Source: Chryseobacterium sp. FH2 (lineage in GTDB: Bacteria > Bacteroidota > Bacteroidia > Flavobacteriales > Weeksellaceae). From it: a stretch of 64,000 nt of DNA. Below, one piece after another: positions 12,589 through 18,934 of this stretch (its first letter is position 1; the number at the start of each line of letters is the position of its first letter). The position numbers and the translations under genes were made by a program. The notes under the pieces were generated by a model. It was not told where the DNA came from. It was given only the letters and a program-made list of their open reading frames with translations, and searched no databases. The stretch covers positions 62,001 through 126,000 of the forward strand of contig NZ_LFNE01000008.1 in the NCBI RefSeq assembly GCF_001045455.1, read 5' to 3'.

Positions 12589-12617
12589 AACCGCTTTCTA
12601 AGGAAAGCGGTTTTTTA
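12589..12617 (+). terminator. Intrinsic terminator after the fused E1 gene
   Basis: Ten-bp stem AACCGCTTTC / GAAAGCGGTT with TAAG loop and a T-run. It also marks the left edge of the RiPP accessory region. Confidence 0.9.
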
Positions 12618-12618
12618 A

Positions 12619-12938
12619 TTATCTTATTTTATAAAAATTTATTGCTTTCTGCTTTAGAGGATTTGTACTCCATTCTTCCCATTCTCCGGTGTAGGGATTA
12701 TAACCGCATTTCAAAGGTTTTGAAATGTCTAATCCGTTTTCATTACTGTGGGTTCTTTCTGTATACGCTCTGCAATCTGTACAAATGTACCTGAACTCAC
12801 AATCTTTGCAGGCTTCTATCTCATCTTTGGTAAGATTCCAGTATTTTTTTTAATCAGCATGTTGTAAAGCCTGCTGTAAACCTATTTCTTTAATATTTCC
12901 GAAGATTTGTGACAATGTTTAATATTCCCGTCTTTGTG
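12619..12938 (-). pseudogene. Fragment of a gwsS-type SPASM gene (C-terminal part, broken)
   Basis: The stretch 12641-12938 is a near copy of 14847-15165, the 3' part of the intact SPASM gene. Read on the minus strand it still gives KKYWNLTKDEIEACKDCEFR and the terminal CGYNPYTGEWEEW, then Q-K-A-I-N-F-Y-K-I-R and a TAA at 12619-12621. It contains a frameshift near the DGNIK segment and an in-frame TAA where the intact copy has QHADFKKYW (QHAD then stop). It joins abruptly to a gwsG fragment at about 12940. A collapsed duplicate, not a functional gene. Confidence 0.85.
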
Positions 12939-12939
12939 C

Positions 12940-13077
12940 CTATTCGTCTGGTTGAATTTCATTAGAAAGTAATGAGTTATCACAATCAATCCTTTCAAAA
13001 TTAGCATTATTAGATATAAGATATTCTATGATTTCATTACCGGAACGATCACTATTTTCTGTTATTATTTTTATCAT
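12940..13077 (-). pseudogene. Fragment of a gwsG-type ATP-grasp gene (first 45 codons)
   Basis: Starts with an ATG at 13077 and matches the first 50 codons of the intact ligase gene at 16994 almost base for base (12978-13077 is virtually identical), apart from a small in-frame deletion (DCDNSLLSNEIQP instead of DCDNFSEYTSIISNEIQP). It ends at a TAG at 12940, where the sequence jumps into the SPASM fragment. The original gene body between has been deleted. Confidence 0.85.
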
Positions 13078-13122
13078 TTAAATATTTTAAATAATCCTCA
13101 AAAGTTAATTTAACAGCATTAT
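13052..13122 (-). pseudogene. Tail fragment of the DUF6624-like gene
   Basis: Encodes NAVKLTFEDYLKYLNDK and NNNRK then stop, identical to the C-terminus of the intact gene ending at 16969, and overlaps the following gwsG fragment start by 26 bp exactly as in the intact locus. Homology to the 17 kb copy begins abruptly at 13122, next to the truncated gwsG2, marking a recombination junction. Confidence 0.8.
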
Positions 13123-13506
13123 CTAACCCAATTTTTTTGCTTGTTCTAGCACTAATAGTTTATTAACACTACTATTACTCTGTTTATTAATGTTTTTTTT
13201 GGACTCAAGTGTTTTTATTATATAATCTTGTAACCAGTGTTGATGTTCATTCATATGAATATCAACTGAGGGATTATTGTAGTGCAAGTGTTTAAAGCGG
13301 AGCCTTCCTCTTCTGTACCAAAAACTGGTAATCTCATCTAAGAAAAATTGTGTTCTGTGACTTTCCAAGAAAATTCTTTTTTTATAAACTTTAATTTCAA
13401 AAATCTCATCTTCATGTACACGAATAAATTTTTTACCCATCTCAGAAAGCCAATTTATAACTTCATTAGTGGTAGTTTCTTGATTTTTCGTTACAATTAA
13501 AATCAT
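13123..13506 (-). pseudogene. Truncated second ATP-grasp peptide ligase (N-terminal domain only)
   Basis: 127 residues. It matches the N-terminal pre-ATP-grasp domain of graspetide-type ligases: MILIVTKNQETTTNEVINWL corresponds to MIKIITENSDRSGNEIIEYL of the intact ligase at 16994, and FWYRRG to VWIRRG. It stops after LEQAKKLG, just where the ATP-grasp fold should begin, at the junction with copied 17-kb sequence. The ATP- and metal-binding residues are therefore all missing. It is a diverged paralogue, not a recent copy. Its ATG overlaps the upstream gene's stop by four bases. It could still be translated, but no ligase activity is expected. Confidence 0.8.
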
Positions 13507-14396
13507 TTCTTTTTTGTTTTTTTGAAAAAATCTTTTCTGATTTCAGCTTCATGTTTCAAACTGGGTAGTCCTATGCTTTTTCTACTTCGATTAACCTGAG
13601 TCGAATCTTGGGTTTTATTTCTATATCTAAACCTTGATGCTGTATTCTTATTATTATCAAAGGTATCTGCCATAAGTGAATAATCCTGAGGGGAACAATC
13701 ACCTGATTTCAAATATTCAAATACTTTGCTTTTAATTATGGGATAACTTTCTGATGATACCATATGGCTCAATAAAGTTGGCATTGCGATAAAAACATCA
13801 TTATTTCCAAGTCGTCCTATTTTTTGTGAAGAAGGAAACCCATAATTTGTAAACGTCCATAGGAAAAGATGTGCATTTTTTTCAACATTCTTTTTGACCA
13901 ATGTTTTATCGTTAGGTCTGCCTACCTGATCTCGTATCATAGCTATTGTGAAAGAATCAATAAGTTGTTTATTTAGACTTTTTTTCCAATCTGCAACTCT
14001 TTGATTTACTTCTGTGCTGTCTATTCCATACTTTTGATAAAGCTTGAATTGGTCTTTATAACTGTCACCATAGGGAGCTATTAAAGGTATCAGTTTATAA
14101 AGACTTTTTTTTCCACCAAAATTTTTATTGTAATCATCAGATATTTTAATATATGTGAAATACTCTTCTATGCGTTCCTGATTTTTAGGTGTATATTTTC
14201 TAAATAATTTACGATATTTTTTTATAGCTTTTTGAGGATTATTTGCCATCCGATAAATACTGTCAATTTCATTTACTCTATTATAATAGGTAATATAATC
14301 GAACTCTCTACTTTTACAAGAATTAAAAAAAAATGTCCATGTTGAAAATATGGCTATTAAGTAAAAAATGGACTTTTTATTAAAATGTTTTTTCAC
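13503..14396 (-). CDS. Lipoprotein, DUF6624-like, of the RiPP locus
   Basis: 297 residues with a lipobox ending at Cys27 (FFFNSCKSRE), so predicted to be a lipid-anchored exported protein. The N-terminal part is helical and TPR-like. The C-terminal part has YGFPSSQKIGRLGNNDVF and the closing RKSIGLPSL, which correspond to KYGFPNEYMVG and RKKIGLPDV in the paralogue at 16969. This pattern resembles the DUF6624 family. Function unknown; presence in both peptide units suggests a role tied to the peptides (export, processing or protection), which is inference. The start codon is GTG at 14396; no in-frame ATG is nearby. Confidence 0.7.
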   Translation of the reverse strand: MKKHFNKKSIFYLIAIFSTWTFFFNSCKSREFDYITYYNRVNEIDSIYRMANNPQKAIKKYRKLFRKYTPKNQERIEEYFTYIKISDDYNKNFGGKKSLYKLIPLIAPYGDSYKDQFKLYQKYGIDSTEVNQRVADWKKSLNKQLIDSFTIAMIRDQVGRPNDKTLVKKNVEKNAHLFLWTFTNYGFPSSQKIGRLGNNDVFIAMPTLLSHMVSSESYPIIKSKVFEYLKSGDCSPQDYSLMADTFDNNKNTASRFRYRNKTQDSTQVNRSRKSIGLPSLKHEAEIRKDFFKKTKKK

Positions 14397-14460
14397 GCAA
14401 AATGTTTTTTATATTGATAAGGGAGATTTATTTTCCCCTTATTTTTATTTTACAAATAAA

Positions 14461-14661
14461 TTATGCATTAGGCCCACAGGTTGTTATCCTACCTTTATAA
14501 CCTCCGCCCGGAGAATCATATACATCATATTCTACACAGTTTTCTCCAACATTTACATTGGATTGTATATTGCATGTGCCTCCTTGAATAGTTTTTAAAT
14601 CTTTTAACTGTTTATTTTCCAAAGAAGAAAAGTTCTTCTTCATGCCTGTTAATTTTTTCAT
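14461..14661 (-). CDS. RiPP precursor peptide 2 (GG-type leader)
   Basis: 66 residues. The leader SSLENKQLKDLKTIQGG ends in a double-glycine motif of the kind cut by C39-type transporter peptidases. The presumed core is TCNIQSNVNVGENCVEY and onward to TTCGPNA, with three Cys and a glycine-rich turn (SPGGGYKG). It lies directly downstream of the SPASM gene and upstream of the second exported protein, and has its own promoter region sharing a roughly 30-bp motif with that of peptide 1. It is probably a substrate of the ATP-grasp/SPASM pair. No transporter is encoded nearby. Confidence 0.75.
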   Translation of the reverse strand: MKKLTGMKKNFSSLENKQLKDLKTIQGGTCNIQSNVNVGENCVEYDVYDSPGGGYKGRITTCGPNA

Positions 14662-14770
14662 TTTTTTTCATTTTAATTTAATAATTATCTTTGTCATATA
14701 AGCCCTGACATGGGGAACCGATCAGTCTTAATATTTATTTTTTGTACTGTACACTTACAAGAATAAATAC

Positions 14771-14799
14771 TTTTATATCAATATTGACAGTACAAATAT
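14771..14799 (-). promoter_or_regulatory. Conserved promoter-proximal motif upstream of precursor peptide 2
   Basis: On the plus strand 14771-14799 starts TTTTATATCAATATTGACA and ends CAAATAT. The region before peptide 1 (18437-18467) starts TTTTATGTCACTATTGACA and ends CAAAAATAT. The two agree at all but a few positions although the surrounding DNA differs. On the minus strand the motif begins with a -7-like box (ATATTTG) and runs downstream. It implies that the two peptide genes share a control element. Confidence 0.65.
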
Positions 14800-14825
14800 T
14801 GGTTTTTAGAAAATCTGAAAACCAT

Positions 14826-15917
14826 TTAATTTTGTATTCCGTAATACTGTATTGCTTTCTGTTTTAGAGGATTTGTACTCCATTCTTCCCATTCTCCGGT
14901 GTAGGGATCATAACCGCATTTCAAAGGTTTTGAAATGTCTAATCCGTTTTCATTACTGTGGGTTCTTTCTGTATACGCTCTGCAATCTGTACAAATGTAC
15001 CTGAACTCACAATCTTTGCAGGCTTCTATTTCATCTTTGGTAAGATTCCAGTATTTTTTGAAATCAGCATGTTGTAAAGCCTGCTCTAAAGTTGTATTTT
15101 TAATATTTCCGAAAGATTCTGGCATTGCAGGACAGTTTTTAATATTCCCGTCTTTGTCTATTGCTATTTTTTTGTGAAGGCAGGAATTGTGATTGACCGC
15201 TTCTGTATACATTTGAATATTGGTGGCAAAATAATCAGATTTAATTTTCCCGCAATGTAATTGGGGACTTATCTTTTGTGTTGTAAAAATTATAAATTTA
15301 GTATTTTTACTATCAATAAAAATATATTCTTCTTTTTTGCTATTGCTGATAATAAAAGAAGTAATCCGAGGATATTCAACAACCATATTTTGTAAAATCT
15401 GTATATTTAAATCAGGAGAAAATTGAAGTATGAAAGATATTGATGAAATTATCATCTCATTTTTATTAATAAAATTTAAAATATCATTAATGATTTCTAA
15501 TTTTATTTTATGATAAAATCTAATTTGTAGAAATTTACAGTTAAGATTATCCAAATTTGTAAACACTTTGAAAAGATTATAATTGCTGGTAGTGTCTAAA
15601 TCTATGATTGCATTTGAAATTTCAAAAGGATAATGAAAATCCAAATCCATTTTCGGATAGTATTTTGGATTTTGTGTAAAGAATATGAATTCTTTTTCTA
15701 ATAGAAAATCAAAATATTCATCTATGATTCCGTCATATTGATTTTTATAATGAATTTTTATATCTTTTTTATTTTTTTTGCCATCAAATTTTTTTAAAAT
15801 ATCATATAAATCATTAGGAATGAATTCATAATTTCCTCTTTGTAAATCACAAATAATACTGTTAATACTTCCCTTAACAGGAATACAGTTAGGGTATAAT
15901 CTGAAGACTTCTTTCAT
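14826..15917 (-). CDS. gwsS: Grasp-with-spasm system SPASM-domain peptide maturase
   Basis: 363 residues. Residues 1-80 look like a PqqD-type peptide-recognition domain (FRLYPNCIPVKGS, then YEFIPNDLYDILKKFDG). The C-terminal SPASM domain holds eight Cys at 222, 246, 262, 300, 303, 309, 312 and 334 (SCLHKKIAIDKDGNIKNCPA; CKDCEFRYICTDC), fitting auxiliary iron-sulfur clusters. No CxxxCxxC radical-SAM motif is present, as is characteristic of the named grasp-with-spasm family. The start codon overlaps the stop of a 55-residue gene (ATGA). Its natural reaction is unknown. Three partial or broken copies of this gene region occur in the window in total, counting this intact one. Confidence 0.87.
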   Translation of the reverse strand: MKEVFRLYPNCIPVKGSINSIICDLQRGNYEFIPNDLYDILKKFDGKKNKKDIKIHYKNQYDGIIDEYFDFLLEKEFIFFTQNPKYYPKMDLDFHYPFEISNAIIDLDTTSNYNLFKVFTNLDNLNCKFLQIRFYHKIKLEIINDILNFINKNEMIISSISFILQFSPDLNIQILQNMVVEYPRITSFIISNSKKEEYIFIDSKNTKFIIFTTQKISPQLHCGKIKSDYFATNIQMYTEAVNHNSCLHKKIAIDKDGNIKNCPAMPESFGNIKNTTLEQALQHADFKKYWNLTKDEIEACKDCEFRYICTDCRAYTERTHSNENGLDISKPLKCGYDPYTGEWEEWSTNPLKQKAIQYYGIQN

Positions 15918-16081
15918 AAAACTTTAGAAATAGGCTTATAAAATATCTGATCAGATATTTTATCTGATTTAATTTTTCTTATTGTAAAAAACTGTCCCTT
16001 CTCAATTTTAATATTTTCTTTAAAAGAATACTGAAGAACAATAGGTATTTTTTCAAAATTATTTCTGACTAGTTTTTTCAT
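15914..16081 (-). CDS. 55-residue protein encoded between gwsG and gwsS
   Basis: ATG at 16081 opens MKKLVRNNFEKIPIVLQYSF, continues KENIKIEKGQFFTIRKIKSD and ends PISKVL. It overlaps the last 23 bp of gwsG and its TGA overlaps the gwsS ATG by four bases, so it bridges the two genes with no gap, the pattern expected of a translationally coupled gene. The product is basic, without a signal peptide or membrane segment. A 26-bp perfect palindrome (15938-15963) lies within its last third. I know no family. Alternatives are that it is a fragment split from one of the maturases, or only a coupling leader. Confidence 0.6.
   Translation of the reverse strand: MKKLVRNNFEKIPIVLQYSFKENIKIEKGQFFTIRKIKSDKISDQIFYKPISKVL
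15938..15963. repeat. 26-bp perfect palindrome inside the gwsG-gwsS gap
   Basis: Two 13-base arms (ATAAAATATCTGA and its complement) meet without a spacer around TGATCA. No T-run follows in the minus direction. It lies within the coding part of the 55-residue gene, 21 bp before the gwsS ATG. A hairpin there could affect gwsS translation or mRNA decay, or the palindrome could bind a protein. Confidence 0.75.
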
Positions 16082-16994
16082 AATCAATTAATTTTTCTGC
16101 AATAAACTTTTCAATATGATAATTACAATTTCTTGAAACCCAATTGAACTGTCCTTGTGGATTGATCTCTAGAAAAACAAATTCATTTTCGGGGGTTAAA
16201 ATAAGATCTATTGAGCATGTGTCGATTTTCTTGTGCTTTAGAAATTTTCTTAGTTTTTGAATTATTTTTTTGGGAAGATTGAATGCAATACATCTATTTT
16301 GTTTTTCAGAATTATAGTTTCTGAAGTCGATTTTAGTTTTCTCGTCATTCTGAGAAAATATAGCCATTGCAAAAAAGCTGTCATCAAAATAAAAAGTTCT
16401 TATTTCTACTTCTTTTTCTATGTACTGCTGAAACTTTGAAACCACAAAGTAATCATGTAATTCATCTAAATGAAAATTTTCAACAATGCATGTTCCTTGG
16501 GACATATAAATAAATTCTTCCGTCTTAAACCTGATAATATCTTTAATAGATTTTGTGATTATTTTCCCGTGTTTTTCTTTAAAAGAAATTACATCTTTTT
16601 TCTTATTTGTAATGAGTGTTTCAGGTATTTTGAAACCACACTCTTTTGCTAGATAAAGATCATATAATTTATTGTGCTGATCTTCTTCTATAAAGTCACC
16701 AAAATAATTTTTATTTCCTTTATTTATCTTTTCATAGAATTTATTTACGATATCACTTTCTTTCCATATATAGTAACTGAATGGGTAATTTAATAATTCA
16801 TTAGGATTTAATTGTCTTGATCCTCTTCTAATCCAAACAACATCTTTTTCTGGTTGAATTTCATTAGAAATAATAGAGGTATATTCACTAAAATTATCAC
16901 AATCAATCCTTTCAAAATTAGCATTATTAGATATAAGATATTCTATGATTTCATTACCGGAACGATCACTATTTTCTGTTATTATTTTTATCAT
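16059..16994 (-). CDS. gwsG: Grasp-with-spasm system ATP-grasp peptide maturase
   Basis: 311-residue ATP-grasp ligase of the graspetide type, expected to link side chains of the precursor peptide by ester or amide bonds at the cost of ATP. The N-terminal pre-ATP-grasp domain runs to about residue 110 (VVWIRRGSRQ at 52-61). The ATP-grasp fold shows GKIITKSI (144-150), QQYIEKEVEIRTFYF (189-203), CSIDLIL (260-266) and FLEINPQGQF (274-283), the last two supplying metal-binding acids. It overlaps the upstream DUF6624-like gene by 26 bp and the downstream small gene by 23 bp, so all are one transcript. Probable targets are peptides 1 and 2. Confidence 0.9.
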   Translation of the reverse strand: MIKIITENSDRSGNEIIEYLISNNANFERIDCDNFSEYTSIISNEIQPEKDVVWIRRGSRQLNPNELLNYPFSYYIWKESDIVNKFYEKINKGNKNYFGDFIEEDQHNKLYDLYLAKECGFKIPETLITNKKKDVISFKEKHGKIITKSIKDIIRFKTEEFIYMSQGTCIVENFHLDELHDYFVVSKFQQYIEKEVEIRTFYFDDSFFAMAIFSQNDEKTKIDFRNYNSEKQNRCIAFNLPKKIIQKLRKFLKHKKIDTCSIDLILTPENEFVFLEINPQGQFNWVSRNCNYHIEKFIAEKLIDYEKTSQK

Positions 16995-18063
16995 TTAAAT
17001 ACTTTAAATAATCCTCAAAAGTTAATTTAACAGCATTATTAGTGATGTTATTTAATATTTGCTCACCACAGCTCTCTGTAAAATATTGTATAAAGCTGGT
17101 GGGTTCAAACCTGTATAAAGGATTAAAATTTACCTTAAATAATCTGTACAATGTAGTTTTTGAGACATCAGGCAAACCAATTTTTTTTCTGTTTTCTTCA
17201 ATACGGTCTATTTCTTTTTTATCTTTTTTGTCTCTGCTTTCGGGATAAATACTTTTATTTATGTAGTATTCACTGTCTAAGCCAATTAAAGGAAGATTAT
17301 AGTCTTTTTTCAATGTTGCATGCTCTGTTAAATCCACAAAATTCCTGTTCCTAAGTTTTCCTTCCAAAACAGCTTTATAGAGCAATGGTACTAAATCTAC
17401 GTTTATTTCTTTACCTTTTTTCTGTTGATGGATAATAATGAGCTGATAGTCGGGAGTAAAAGCATCCACTTGGTTGTTCACTCCCACCATATATTCATTA
17501 GGGAAACCATATTTTTCAATAACTTCTTTAAGCTTTACAGCATTAAGACTATCATTTTTATTGAGTTTTTTTATAAGTGCTTCGTCAGGTCTTTTTGTTG
17601 AAAAAGGAACAGTTAGTCTACCAAGGTACTGATCGCTTTTACCTAAACTGTCCAGCGTTTTTTTTAGGATATAGTTGAATTTACTTTGCTCCTGAGTACA
17701 ATCTATTCCATTTATAAAATCTTGATTATTTTCCATAAAATCTTTGAAAAATTTAAATCCTCTTATAGTAGAAAAATTGTAACCTAAACATCTTAGATTT
17801 TTGTAATCCTTTTTTGCTCTCTCATTATTATGTATTTCTGTGTTTACAATAAAACTATTATATATATCATCAAAAAAAGGTTGTTTTTTGAGCTTAAATG
17901 CATTTTGATAATATTCTGATGCAGCTTTTTTGTCATTAGAGATTACTATAGCATATTCTGCTTTATTGGTATAGTCATAATATTTTTGCAGAGTTTCGGA
18001 CAATTGACCATAAGTATATAAAATGCAAAATAAGCAAATGAGGAGAAGAGTTTTTTTTATCAT
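16969..18063 (-). CDS. Exported DUF6624-like protein of the RiPP locus
   Basis: 364 residues with an N-terminal signal peptide (MIKKTLLLICLFCILYTYGQ), so predicted periplasmic or outer-membrane-associated. An N-terminal helical TPR-like part (KAASEYYQNAFKL, NERAKKDYKNLRCLGY) is followed by EKYGFPNEYMVGVNNQVDAF, LLYKAVLEGKLRNRNF and ENRKKIGLPDV, a pattern resembling DUF6624. The extra C-terminal 55 residues are specific to this copy. It lies between precursor peptide 1 and gwsG and overlaps gwsG by 26 bp. A paralogue occupies the same place in the second unit (13503). Function unknown. Confidence 0.75.
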   Translation of the reverse strand: MIKKTLLLICLFCILYTYGQLSETLQKYYDYTNKAEYAIVISNDKKAASEYYQNAFKLKKQPFFDDIYNSFIVNTEIHNNERAKKDYKNLRCLGYNFSTIRGFKFFKDFMENNQDFINGIDCTQEQSKFNYILKKTLDSLGKSDQYLGRLTVPFSTKRPDEALIKKLNKNDSLNAVKLKEVIEKYGFPNEYMVGVNNQVDAFTPDYQLIIIHQQKKGKEINVDLVPLLYKAVLEGKLRNRNFVDLTEHATLKKDYNLPLIGLDSEYYINKSIYPESRDKKDKKEIDRIEENRKKIGLPDVSKTTLYRLFKVNFNPLYRFEPTSFIQYFTESCGEQILNNITNNAVKLTFEDYLKYLNDKNNNRK

Positions 18064-18208
18064 TTTTATTTTTTAATAAATAAAATATTTTACTCACATC
18101 CATTTACATTAACAGTGGTTTATACTTATTGCTAAAAATATAAATTGGATGCAGGTAAAATATTTGTAATAAAAGATGATACTTTATAGTTTCTTATCTT
18201 TAATAAAA

Positions 18209-18418
18209 TTAACTACTATGACAGTTGCCTAAGCCTATATAACCTCCATTACCAAATTTAACGTCGCTATCGCAAGTTACATCACCTAAACTAGTCGTGG
18301 CTTGTATTGATCCATTATACATAGGACCTCCGCTTCCTCCTGCAACATCTTTTTTACCCTCATTTTTCATTTGAAATTTTTTAAGGCTCTCTAATCCCTT
18401 TGTTGTTTTCTTTTTCAT
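18209..18418 (-). CDS. RiPP precursor peptide 1 of the grasp-with-spasm locus
   Basis: 69 residues: a Lys-rich leader (MKKKTTKGLESLKKFQMK), then a glycine-rich hinge (VAGGSGGPMYNG) and a core with SIQATTSLGDVTCDSDVKFG and YIGLGNCHSS. The core has Ser/Thr and Asp clusters that could be cross-linked by an ATP-grasp ligase, plus two Cys. It is the first gene of the operon that continues through the exported protein, gwsG, the 55-residue gene and gwsS. It is transcribed away from the XRE regulator, with a candidate operator in between. The substrate role is inferred from position, size and composition. Confidence 0.8.
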   Translation of the reverse strand: MKKKTTKGLESLKKFQMKNEGKKDVAGGSGGPMYNGSIQATTSLGDVTCDSDVKFGNGGYIGLGNCHSS

Positions 18419-18436
18419 TGTTTGAAATTTTTTATG

Positions 18437-18467
18437 TTTTTATGTCACTATTGACAATCCAAAAATA
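18437..18467 (-). promoter_or_regulatory. Promoter and conserved motif upstream of precursor peptide 1
   Basis: On the minus strand a -7 box TATTTTTG lies at 18467-18460, an exact TAnnTTTG match, 42 bp before the peptide 1 ATG. The flanking sequence (plus-strand TTTTATGTCACTATTGACA) is closely matched upstream of peptide 2 at 14771. Confidence 0.65.
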
Positions 18468-18496
18468 TCAAACAGTGTTGAAATAACTTTAAGGTT

Positions 18497-18531
18497 TTTA
18501 TGTGAATTTTATGTGAATTTCAACACATAAA
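18497..18531. promoter_or_regulatory. Candidate operator of the XRE regulator
   Basis: TTTATGTG occurs at 18497-18504 and 18508-18515, 11 bp apart and so on the same face of the helix. Its exact complement CACATAAA is at 18524-18531, forming with the second copy an inverted repeat with an 8-bp spacer. The block lies directly upstream of the regulator's -7 box and between the divergent peptide and regulator genes. Autoregulation and control of the peptide operon are inferred. Confidence 0.65.
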
Positions 18532-18534
18532 TAA

Positions 18535-18542
18535 TATATTTG
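18535..18542 (+). promoter_or_regulatory. Promoter -7 element of the XRE regulator gene
   Basis: TATATTTG is an exact TAnnTTTG match, 18 bp before the ATG at 18560. The inverted operator repeat ends four bases upstream of it, so a bound regulator would cover the promoter spacer. Confidence 0.65.
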
Positions 18543-18559
18543 CAGTATAAAACATAACA

Positions 18560-18934
18560 ATGATAAAAAATAAGCTCATAAAAGTCCGAAAGGCAAAAGA
18601 ATTCACCCAGGAAAAAATGGCTAAAATATTACATATGACTCAATCTCAATATCAAAGAAGGGAAAAAGGAGAAATAAAAATTTCTGATCCGGAATGGGAA
18701 CGTATTGCAAAAGCATTAGATGTTCCCGTAGAAGATATTAAAGAAGATGAATCAATTATCCATCAGATTAATACTTATGATAATCAATCCGTTAATTATT
18801 CTTCAAGTAATAATTACTTTCATAATATCCCGGATTATATATTGGAAAACCAGCAGGAGTATATTAATTTGCTGAAAAAGGAAATTGAGGAATTAAAAGG
18901 AGAAATTCAAGATTTAAAATCTCAAAACAAATAA
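18560..18934 (+). CDS. XRE-family transcriptional regulator beside the RiPP operon
   Basis: 124 residues. Residues 5-57 form a Cro/C1-type helix-turn-helix (KVRKAKEFTQEKMAKILHMT, QSQYQRREKGEIKISDPEWE, IAKALDVPVEDI). The C-terminus (about residues 95-124, EYINLLKKEIEELKGEIQDL) is a regular coiled coil, suggesting dimerisation. It diverges from precursor peptide 1 across 141 bp that contain both promoters and repeated TTTATGTG sites. It is the likely local regulator of the peptide operon and of itself. It ends in a bidirectional terminator shared with the HxlR gene. Confidence 0.85.
   Translation: MIKNKLIKVRKAKEFTQEKMAKILHMTQSQYQRREKGEIKISDPEWERIAKALDVPVEDIKEDESIIHQINTYDNQSVNYSSSNNYFHNIPDYILENQQEYINLLKKEIEELKGEIQDLKSQNK

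Follow-up and report, generated by a model that had tools for sequence, protein, structure and literature searches.

In the present study, we analysed a grasp-with-spasm locus of Chryseobacterium sp. FH2, a gene set for a ribosomally synthesized and post-translationally modified peptide (RiPP) with an ATP-grasp graspetide ligase (GwsG) and a SPASM protein (GwsS), which lies in a stretch of 64,000 nucleotides (nt; contig NZ_LFNE01000008.1, positions 62,001 to 126,000; hereafter the window, whose own numbering is used throughout). The best overall explanation, which we consider likely, is that the locus holds one intact graspetide cassette (A), in which GwsS serves as a non-radical partner of the ligase, followed by the wreck of a second cassette (B) whose remaining precursor is an orphan. 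The original prediction, made from the DNA sequence, had described one locus in which a single ligase/SPASM pair serves two unlike precursors. All the open reading frames (ORFs) that it named exist, in the order it gave and on the minus strand, with an XRE regulator gene divergent from them, and the grasp-with-spasm assignment is borne out by a match to TIGR04193 over the cut-off and a match to TIGR04192. Its genes and their order stand; its single-cassette picture, which overlooked the scraps at 12614-13122, does not.

As read from the sequence, the locus is composed of two cassettes on the minus strand. Cassette A (18418-14826) encodes precursor 1 (69 amino acids (aa), 18209-18418), exported protein A (364 aa, 16969-18063, N-terminal signal by eye), the ATP-grasp graspetide ligase GwsG-A (311 aa, 16059-16994), an LPL-like small protein (55 aa from its ATG, 15914-16081, overlapping the ends of GwsG and GwsS) and GwsS-A (363 aa, 14826-15917), and reads without a frameshift or internal stop. 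Cassette B (14661-12614) opens with precursor 2 (66 aa, 14461-14661) and lipoprotein B (297 aa, 13503-14396, lipobox by eye), followed by 127 N-terminal aa of another kind of GwsG, whose catalytic half is lost (GwsG-B fragment, 13123-13506), and then by scraps. The segment at 12947-13122 (176 nt) is a near-copy of 16849-17039 (192 alignment columns, 1 mismatch, 3 gap openings) and reproduces the junction of the exported protein A 3' end with the GwsG-A 5' end, and that at 12614-12944 is an 89.7% copy of a GwsS 3' (SPASM) end carrying indels and a stop. Since a near-copy scrap of A and a GwsS 3' remnant lie behind the truncated GwsG, the region contains two cassettes. The "truncated ATP-grasp" of the original prediction was found not to be a truncated copy of the intact ligase, which it matches over 33 aa at 36% identity, compared with 61% to the GwsG on contig C5 and 75% to a GwsG of genome G110. 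The genome of Chryseobacterium sp. FH2 carries two further intact sets, on contigs C5 and C12.

The nature of GwsS was assessed in the window, in 86 full-length GwsS genes from 86 genus loci and in 86 proteins from 80 named loci. The genus loci were fetched mostly from genomes with two or more copies and are therefore not a random sample; TIGR04193 is matched in 94 of 118 genus genomes, over the cut-off in 87. GwsS-A scores 358 bits against this model (cut-off 175), as a grasp-with-spasm maturase should. The CX3CX2C motif for S-adenosylmethionine (SAM) is absent from the N-terminal half of the 86 genus and the 86 named-locus proteins alike; one chance C...C..C in the C12 copy lies inside the SPASM part. 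Pfam Radical_SAM matched 0 of 82 GwsS sequences at E 0.01, and Pfam SPASM matched 76 of 82, the window protein scoring over the cut-off. Eight SPASM cysteines are kept in 85-86 of the 86 genus proteins and in 83-87 of 87 in the named-locus alignment, which includes the window protein.

An AlphaFold model of GwsS-A built from 82 sequences (pLDDT 93.2, pTM 0.87) shows an N-terminal RiPP recognition element (RRE; about residues 3-86), a barrel remnant and an eight-Cys SPASM domain. Residues 3-86 match the lasso B1 protein 6jx3 (Z 9.8, root-mean-square deviation (rmsd) 2.3, 78 residues aligned), TbiB1 (Z 9.3, rmsd 2.8, 80 aligned), TruD (Z 9.1, rmsd 2.9, 88 aligned) and MccB (Z 8.1, rmsd 3.0, 81 aligned), all of which we take to be RRE-bearing proteins. 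In the model, the N-terminal end is thus a PqqD-like winged helix fold of the RRE kind, for which leader binding is predicted. Nearly the whole chain matches TigE (Z 12.3, rmsd 7.1, 302 aligned) and CteB (Z 11.5, rmsd 6.4, 282 aligned), and the part from about residue 94 on matches anSME (Z 10.7, rmsd 4.5, 212 aligned), PqqE (Z 10.6, rmsd 5.5, 198 aligned), SuiB (Z 10.0, rmsd 4.7, 188 aligned) and EpeE (Z 10.0, rmsd 5.3, 192 aligned); by strand and helix count, the modelled barrel is shortened. A profile search of GwsS against Protein Data Bank sequences gave nothing convincing (3 matches at E ≤1, the best, at 0.0099, a prenyl synthase). Because these fold matches coincide with a missing CX3CX2C motif, GwsS would follow the plan of a radical maturase without the radical site, and the model suggests that it is probably a partner of the ligase and not a radical enzyme.

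Among the other components of cassette A, GwsG-A matches TIGR04192 over residues 3-302 (E 1.6e-56, 192 bits) and, judged by its sequence, is a divergent relative; the GwsG copies on C5 and C12 pass the cut-off of that model (348 and 277 bits). EIN..GQ is an ATP-grasp catalytic motif, and GwsG-A retains the motifs of graspetide ATP-grasp ligases, with DFR at residue 223 and EINPQGQF at residue 276. The DFR motif has been named critical for graspetide ATP-grasp proteins (PMC13097080; this paper and PMC8939145 are cited throughout from excerpts). The 55-aa protein occupies the place of the published LPL family, between GwsG and GwsS, where a small ORF was found for 78 of the 86 GwsS genes of the genus and for 83 of the 86 from named loci. 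In a model of exported protein A (pLDDT 78), a TPR-like helical part spans about residues 23-115; the TPR fold matches (Z up to 9.4) concern this N part only and are no higher than helical folds may score through a chance arrangement, and the C-terminal part shows weak DUF6624 likeness (E 0.08).

The leaders provide the link between precursors and machines. The original prediction had contrasted a Gly-hinge precursor with a double-Gly one, a contrast that fails, as both precursors have a double Gly after the leader. Precursor 1 has the type-A leader LxxLxxFQMxN..GGxGGP, which ends in VAGG before SGGP, while leaders of its relatives end in LTGG before IGGP and VFGG before EGGP; one Asp and an NG are common to the tails of the six genus type-A precursors, and precursor 1 keeps both. 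Precursor 2 exceeds the TIGR04139 cut-off (46 bits vs 40) and shares its leader type with the C5 precursor, its one clear relative in its own genome (E 2.9e-8; two further weak places, E 0.15 and 0.58). The comparison of neighbouring genes that the original prediction had recommended was run across the 86 genus loci and spoke against its central claim: leaders track the cassette type. A lipoprotein of the B or C5 kind accompanies a FSSLENK-type leader at 46 of 86 GwsS genes and an exported protein of the A kind accompanies a LxxLxxFQ..GGxGGP leader at 6; there was no crossed case among the 86, of which 52 were informative (all agreeing) and 34 fell in neither pairing. The latter comprise one lipoprotein without either leader (L117, where the 5.5 kb searched does not reach the precursor), one exported protein of the A kind without either leader, one B leader beside another protein, and 31 other types. 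Since precursor 2 is of the lipoprotein/FSSLENK type, whose local maturases are destroyed, it looks, from its sequence type, like an orphan, and the only machine of the same type in the genome is the one on contig C5.

The decay of cassette B is accompanied by a mosaic GwsS-A. At the DNA level, GwsS-A and the C5 GwsS are 46% identical over the first two thirds and 97% identical over the SPASM end, where a patch of 362 nt (14842-15203) reaches 98.6% with 5 mismatches. We interpret this shared end, on sequence identity, as a recent conversion and not as a genus-wide rule. Concerted evolution of the SPASM end throughout the genus was considered and rejected, as C-half identity is no higher within genomes than between them (pairs with unlike N halves: median 0.672, n=37, within; 0.669, n=2268, between; p 0.23). 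Among 57 within-genome pairs, the window/C5 pair is alone in its mosaic; one between-genome pair (G026-G033) also stands at 0.90 C-half identity. Misassembly is an unlikely cause of the mosaic, because an assembly error of this kind should duplicate the sequence exactly, which the 5 mismatches of the patch contradict.

Broken maturase copies occur in 8 of the 86 genus loci, the window included; the scan had flagged nine, of which L123 was excluded as merely cut by the stretch end. In genome G109 (L117, 436-7883), cassette scraps have likewise accumulated: GwsG pieces alternate with four copies of the lipoprotein, and only one GwsS is full. In genome G076 (L121, 5974-7865), a GwsS eroded by 11 stops lies near an XRE gene 72% identical to that of the window. 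Directly downstream of the C12 cassette (L006, 7557-8553) are, by eye, IS3-like transposase ORFs.

Several points weigh against the overall explanation given above. GwsG-A stays under the curated TIGR04192 cut-off (192 vs 230 bits), and precursor 1 matches no NCBIfam model. The LPL motif is unclear in the 55-aa protein, which reads KIPI in its place, and the motif pattern matched 46 of the genus and 18 of the named-locus small ORFs, missing most named loci. Cys 11, 23 and 127 of GwsS are frequent in the named set (78, 64 and 75 of 87), so that some members may hold an unorthodox third cluster. Finally, the leader patterns were written after the peptides had been read, and the loci scored with them come mostly from multi-copy genomes.

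The alternatives have to be weighed against the same observations. If the ligase/SPASM pair of cassette A served both precursors, two products would come from one machine; both precursor genes are indeed intact and flank the intact maturases on both sides, and several unlike precursors have been reported in one locus of the same graspetide branch (PMC8939145). We nevertheless regard this as improbable, given the lack of crossed leader/cassette cases, the other GwsG type of the fragment behind precursor 2, the intact machine of the precursor-2 type on C5 and the upstream element that precursor 2 has of its own. It is likewise unlikely that GwsS is still a modifying enzyme, using its SPASM clusters, perhaps with Cys 11, 23 and 127, for a redox step such as a cross-link at a core Cys: neither protein set has the SAM motif in its N half, Radical_SAM is not matched, and the three additional cysteines lack conservation in the genus proteins (26, 15 and 22 of 86). 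Such an activity would suit the near-invariance of the eight SPASM cysteines and the Cys kept by many precursors (a Cys column is present in 66% of 47 type-B precursors), and PMC8939145 names the SPASM protein a radical SAM enzyme.

It could also be argued that the whole locus is decaying, with cassette A equally silent and the region a graveyard, in keeping with the broken cassette B, the broken copies in other genus loci and the relatives that lack a cassette at this site. We find this quite improbable for a cassette that is open throughout, has its catalytic motifs and is preceded by an operator-like repeat common to other loci. The site itself was followed in 40 genus genomes, including that of FH2, by a search for the flanking E1 dehydrogenase gene, which yielded 29 relatives with 1.5 kb of flank. 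None of the 29 has GwsG, GwsS or XRE beside the E1 gene within that flank. The other neighbour, hxlR, falls within the flank in 16, in some with other genes between, and in these 16 of 29 relatives the site is free of cassette genes; in the other 13, hxlR is not within the 1.5 kb and the site is covered only that far.

A conserved element of 36 nt, the inverted repeat TGYCA-N9-TGRCA in the form CCCATGYCAGGGNTTNTATGRCAAA, lies at 14686-14721 on the minus strand, about 30 nt before the start of precursor 2. When as many as 4 substitutions were allowed, a pattern search located 40 copies, spread over 39 of the 86 loci, and a covariance model was built from these copies. At E 0.01, the model matches sites in 42 of 60 genus genomes, including many of the sequences from which it was built; in the FH2 genome, one match is found at E 0.01 and a second at E 0.10. 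In the named loci, 10 matches at E <1e-5 fall in 9 of 80, each with Chryseobacterium in its title; the model had already included at least 4 of these 10 records. A survey of the family (E 0.01, stricter filters) found the element in 3 of 3 same-genus genomes and in 1 of 57 of other genera. We fetched 20 further sites outside the 86 loci, a part of those in the 60-genome list, one of which (L261) is grasp-with-spasm. The first ATG-started ORF (at least 35 aa) downstream of the element is at most 140 aa long at 40 of 40 and 19 of 20 sites, and an ATG 25-40 nt downstream opens an ORF of 45-140 aa at 38 of 40 and 19 of 20 sites, compared with 50 of 2000 random positions. The failing site of the 20 has a 240-aa ORF at the same distance from the element, and at the two failing sites of the 40, a small precursor-like ORF begins at an ATG further forward. 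By eye, bacteriocin-like double-glycine (GG) peptides or signal-sequence proteins lie downstream of the 19 sites that are not grasp-with-spasm (among L246-L265).

What acts in this element, RNA or DNA, can be viewed in two ways. RNAalifold finds its stem unprompted on a longer alignment, and the variable stem pair reads U-A in 23, C-G in 8, U-G in 8, C-U in 1 and C-A in 0 of the 40 copies, and U-A in 15, C-G in 4 and U-G in 1 of the 20 further sites, which were found with the model itself. The covariation score and the count of cells changed on both sides were each reached by 1 of 500 shuffles; two of five covariation measures were unexceptional, reached by 496 and 475 of 500. The stem has 4-5 base pairs with one truly covarying pair, and the window copy has no folding advantage over its shuffled versions (z 0.06), its lowest-energy fold lacking that stem. 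We did not accept an RNA hairpin as the certain nature of the element, in view of the weak covariation measures, the short stem and the unstable window copy; since the covariation is mixed and the window fold unstable, the element could just as well be a DNA operator. At E up to 1, the window element had no match in Rfam. Neither the element nor a SAM-less TIGR04193 protein was found described in the open-access literature, which was available in part and leaves most subscription papers outside its scope; both the element and the reading of GwsS as a SAM-less partner are apparently new.

The local XRE regulator of the original prediction was confirmed as a plus-strand HTH_3 gene (18560-18934, Pfam E 8.6e-12) divergent from cassette A. 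BLASTP found relatives in 12 other loci of the 86, making 13 with the window's own. Before precursor 1, a direct repeat, TCACATAAAAT/TCACATAAAAA, occupies 18493-18516 between the inverted arms GTGTTGAAAT (18517-18526) and ATTTCAACAC (18475-18484), and is followed by a TATTTTTG box at 18460-18467; TAnnTTTG is a promoter box of Bacteroidota. With up to 3 mismatches allowed, the repeat occurs once in the genome, compared with 0 sites for the reversed control, and its sequence makes 18475-18526, on the minus strand, a probable XRE operator. By eye, among the 13 XRE-linked loci, it is present in full in the window, in L113 (type A) and in L068 (type B), as one unit in L118 and in looser forms in L049 and L066; the stretch fetched for L121 missed the region. 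The repeat as a mark of every XRE-linked locus was therefore rejected, being full in 3 of 13 and partial in one. As it is common to type A and type B loci, one control head can precede unlike cassettes.

Taken together, precursor 1 would be made under the control of XRE bound at this operator. The RRE at the N-terminal end of GwsS, possibly together with the LPL-like protein, would bind the leader and present the core to GwsG in a complex, and GwsG, at the expense of ATP, would form ester or amide links between the side chains of Ser/Thr (or Lys) and those of Asp/Glu. GwsS would act as a partner with two Fe-S clusters in its SPASM domain, having lost the SAM-binding cluster, so that no radical is made. 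A C39 ABC transporter encoded elsewhere, such as that at C5:30585, could cut at the double Gly and export the product. The maturases of cassette B would have been lost by recent recombination involving the conserved SPASM-coding end, and precursor 2, if modified at all, may be modified in trans by the C5 machine.

Export in trans had been proposed in the original prediction and is supported by two Peptidase_C39 matches in the FH2 genome, both outside the locus, the stronger being a 746-aa frame at C5:30585. This gene lies about 20 kb from the C5 cassette and is directly preceded by a gene for a membrane protein with, by eye, a thioredoxin-like part (L128, G000:C5). The exported lipoprotein is a candidate immunity protein; in L118, all that accompanies an isolated SPASM end is a precursor with two lipoproteins, but each of the 62 aligned members of the lipoprotein B family has one conserved His and two conserved Arg, which is enzyme-like. 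Elsewhere in the genome (L127, G000:C1:60928-62833), two adjacent ATP-grasp genes score 120 and 131 bits to TIGR04192, below the cut-off, and with the small ORF that precedes them are perhaps a microviridin/chryseoviridin-type locus.

Should GwsS indeed be a partner without a SAM site, the wrong chemistry has been assigned to a graspetide type that is widespread in the Bacteroidota; its products should then show water losses only, and ligases would have a new kind of partner in an Fe-S protein. The strict linkage of leader and cassette, together with the A, B and C5 sets of one genome, suits a swap experiment, and the 36-nt element could be used to locate small exported peptides of the genus and perhaps to activate them. 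In a broader proposal, whose chances we judge to be evenly balanced, the protein that runs grasp-with-spasm systems is related to radical SAM/SPASM proteins, has lost its radical site for good and was taken over, with its RRE and two Fe-S clusters, as a substrate presenter and perhaps a redox gate for the ATP-grasp ligase, and many Chryseobacterium precursors of any cassette type form, through TGYCA-N9-TGRCA, one regulon of peptide warfare or signalling together with small exported peptides of bacteriocin-like and other kinds. For specialists, the SAM-less partner and the shared element are of more interest than the idea that one machine makes two products.

As far as the literature excerpts go, the system is a known graspetide type, branch 5 of Makarova, whose product is chemically uncharacterised, as the original prediction had held; it is apparently also group 14 of Mitchell, an equivalence that we infer. 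Graspetides of group 14 are without exception accompanied by a SPASM protein, and groups 21 and 15 have been characterised (PMC13097080). Like branch 5 loci (PMC8939145), the present locus has an ATP-grasp protein, a TIGR04193 SPASM protein, a small protein at the place where the LPL family is named, varied GG precursors and an exported protein before the ligase, presumably the equivalent of their cluster 23. It differs in its decayed second cassette of another type in tandem and in the near-identity of the GwsS-A 3' end to a paralogue. The radical SAM label given to the SPASM protein in PMC8939145 is contradicted by our analysis, and the excerpt of PMC13097080 says only that such SPASM domains are often associated with radical SAM enzymes. 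Microviridin and chryseoviridin systems share the ATP-grasp ligase family; here, however, a SPASM protein stands beside the ligase, and neither precursor shows, by eye, the PFFARFL-like leader motif of microviridin-type graspetides (PMC8939145). GwsS resembles CteB, TigE, SuiB and PqqE in its modelled RRE, barrel and SPASM domain, whereas the absent CX3CX2C and shortened barrel set it apart from radical SAM/SPASM maturases, to which it does not belong by motif. The closest functional parallel may be rosaritide, whose ligase MirB does nothing without its partner MirC, a protein with a weakly RRE-like N-terminal domain (PMC13097080). As in that system, an ATP-grasp ligase would be paired with a partner bearing an RRE-like N-terminal domain, the partnership being predicted for GwsS; MirC, however, is a SurA/PpiC-like chaperone, whereas GwsS is related to radical SAM/SPASM proteins, lacks the SAM site and has a fold that is clearly RRE-like.

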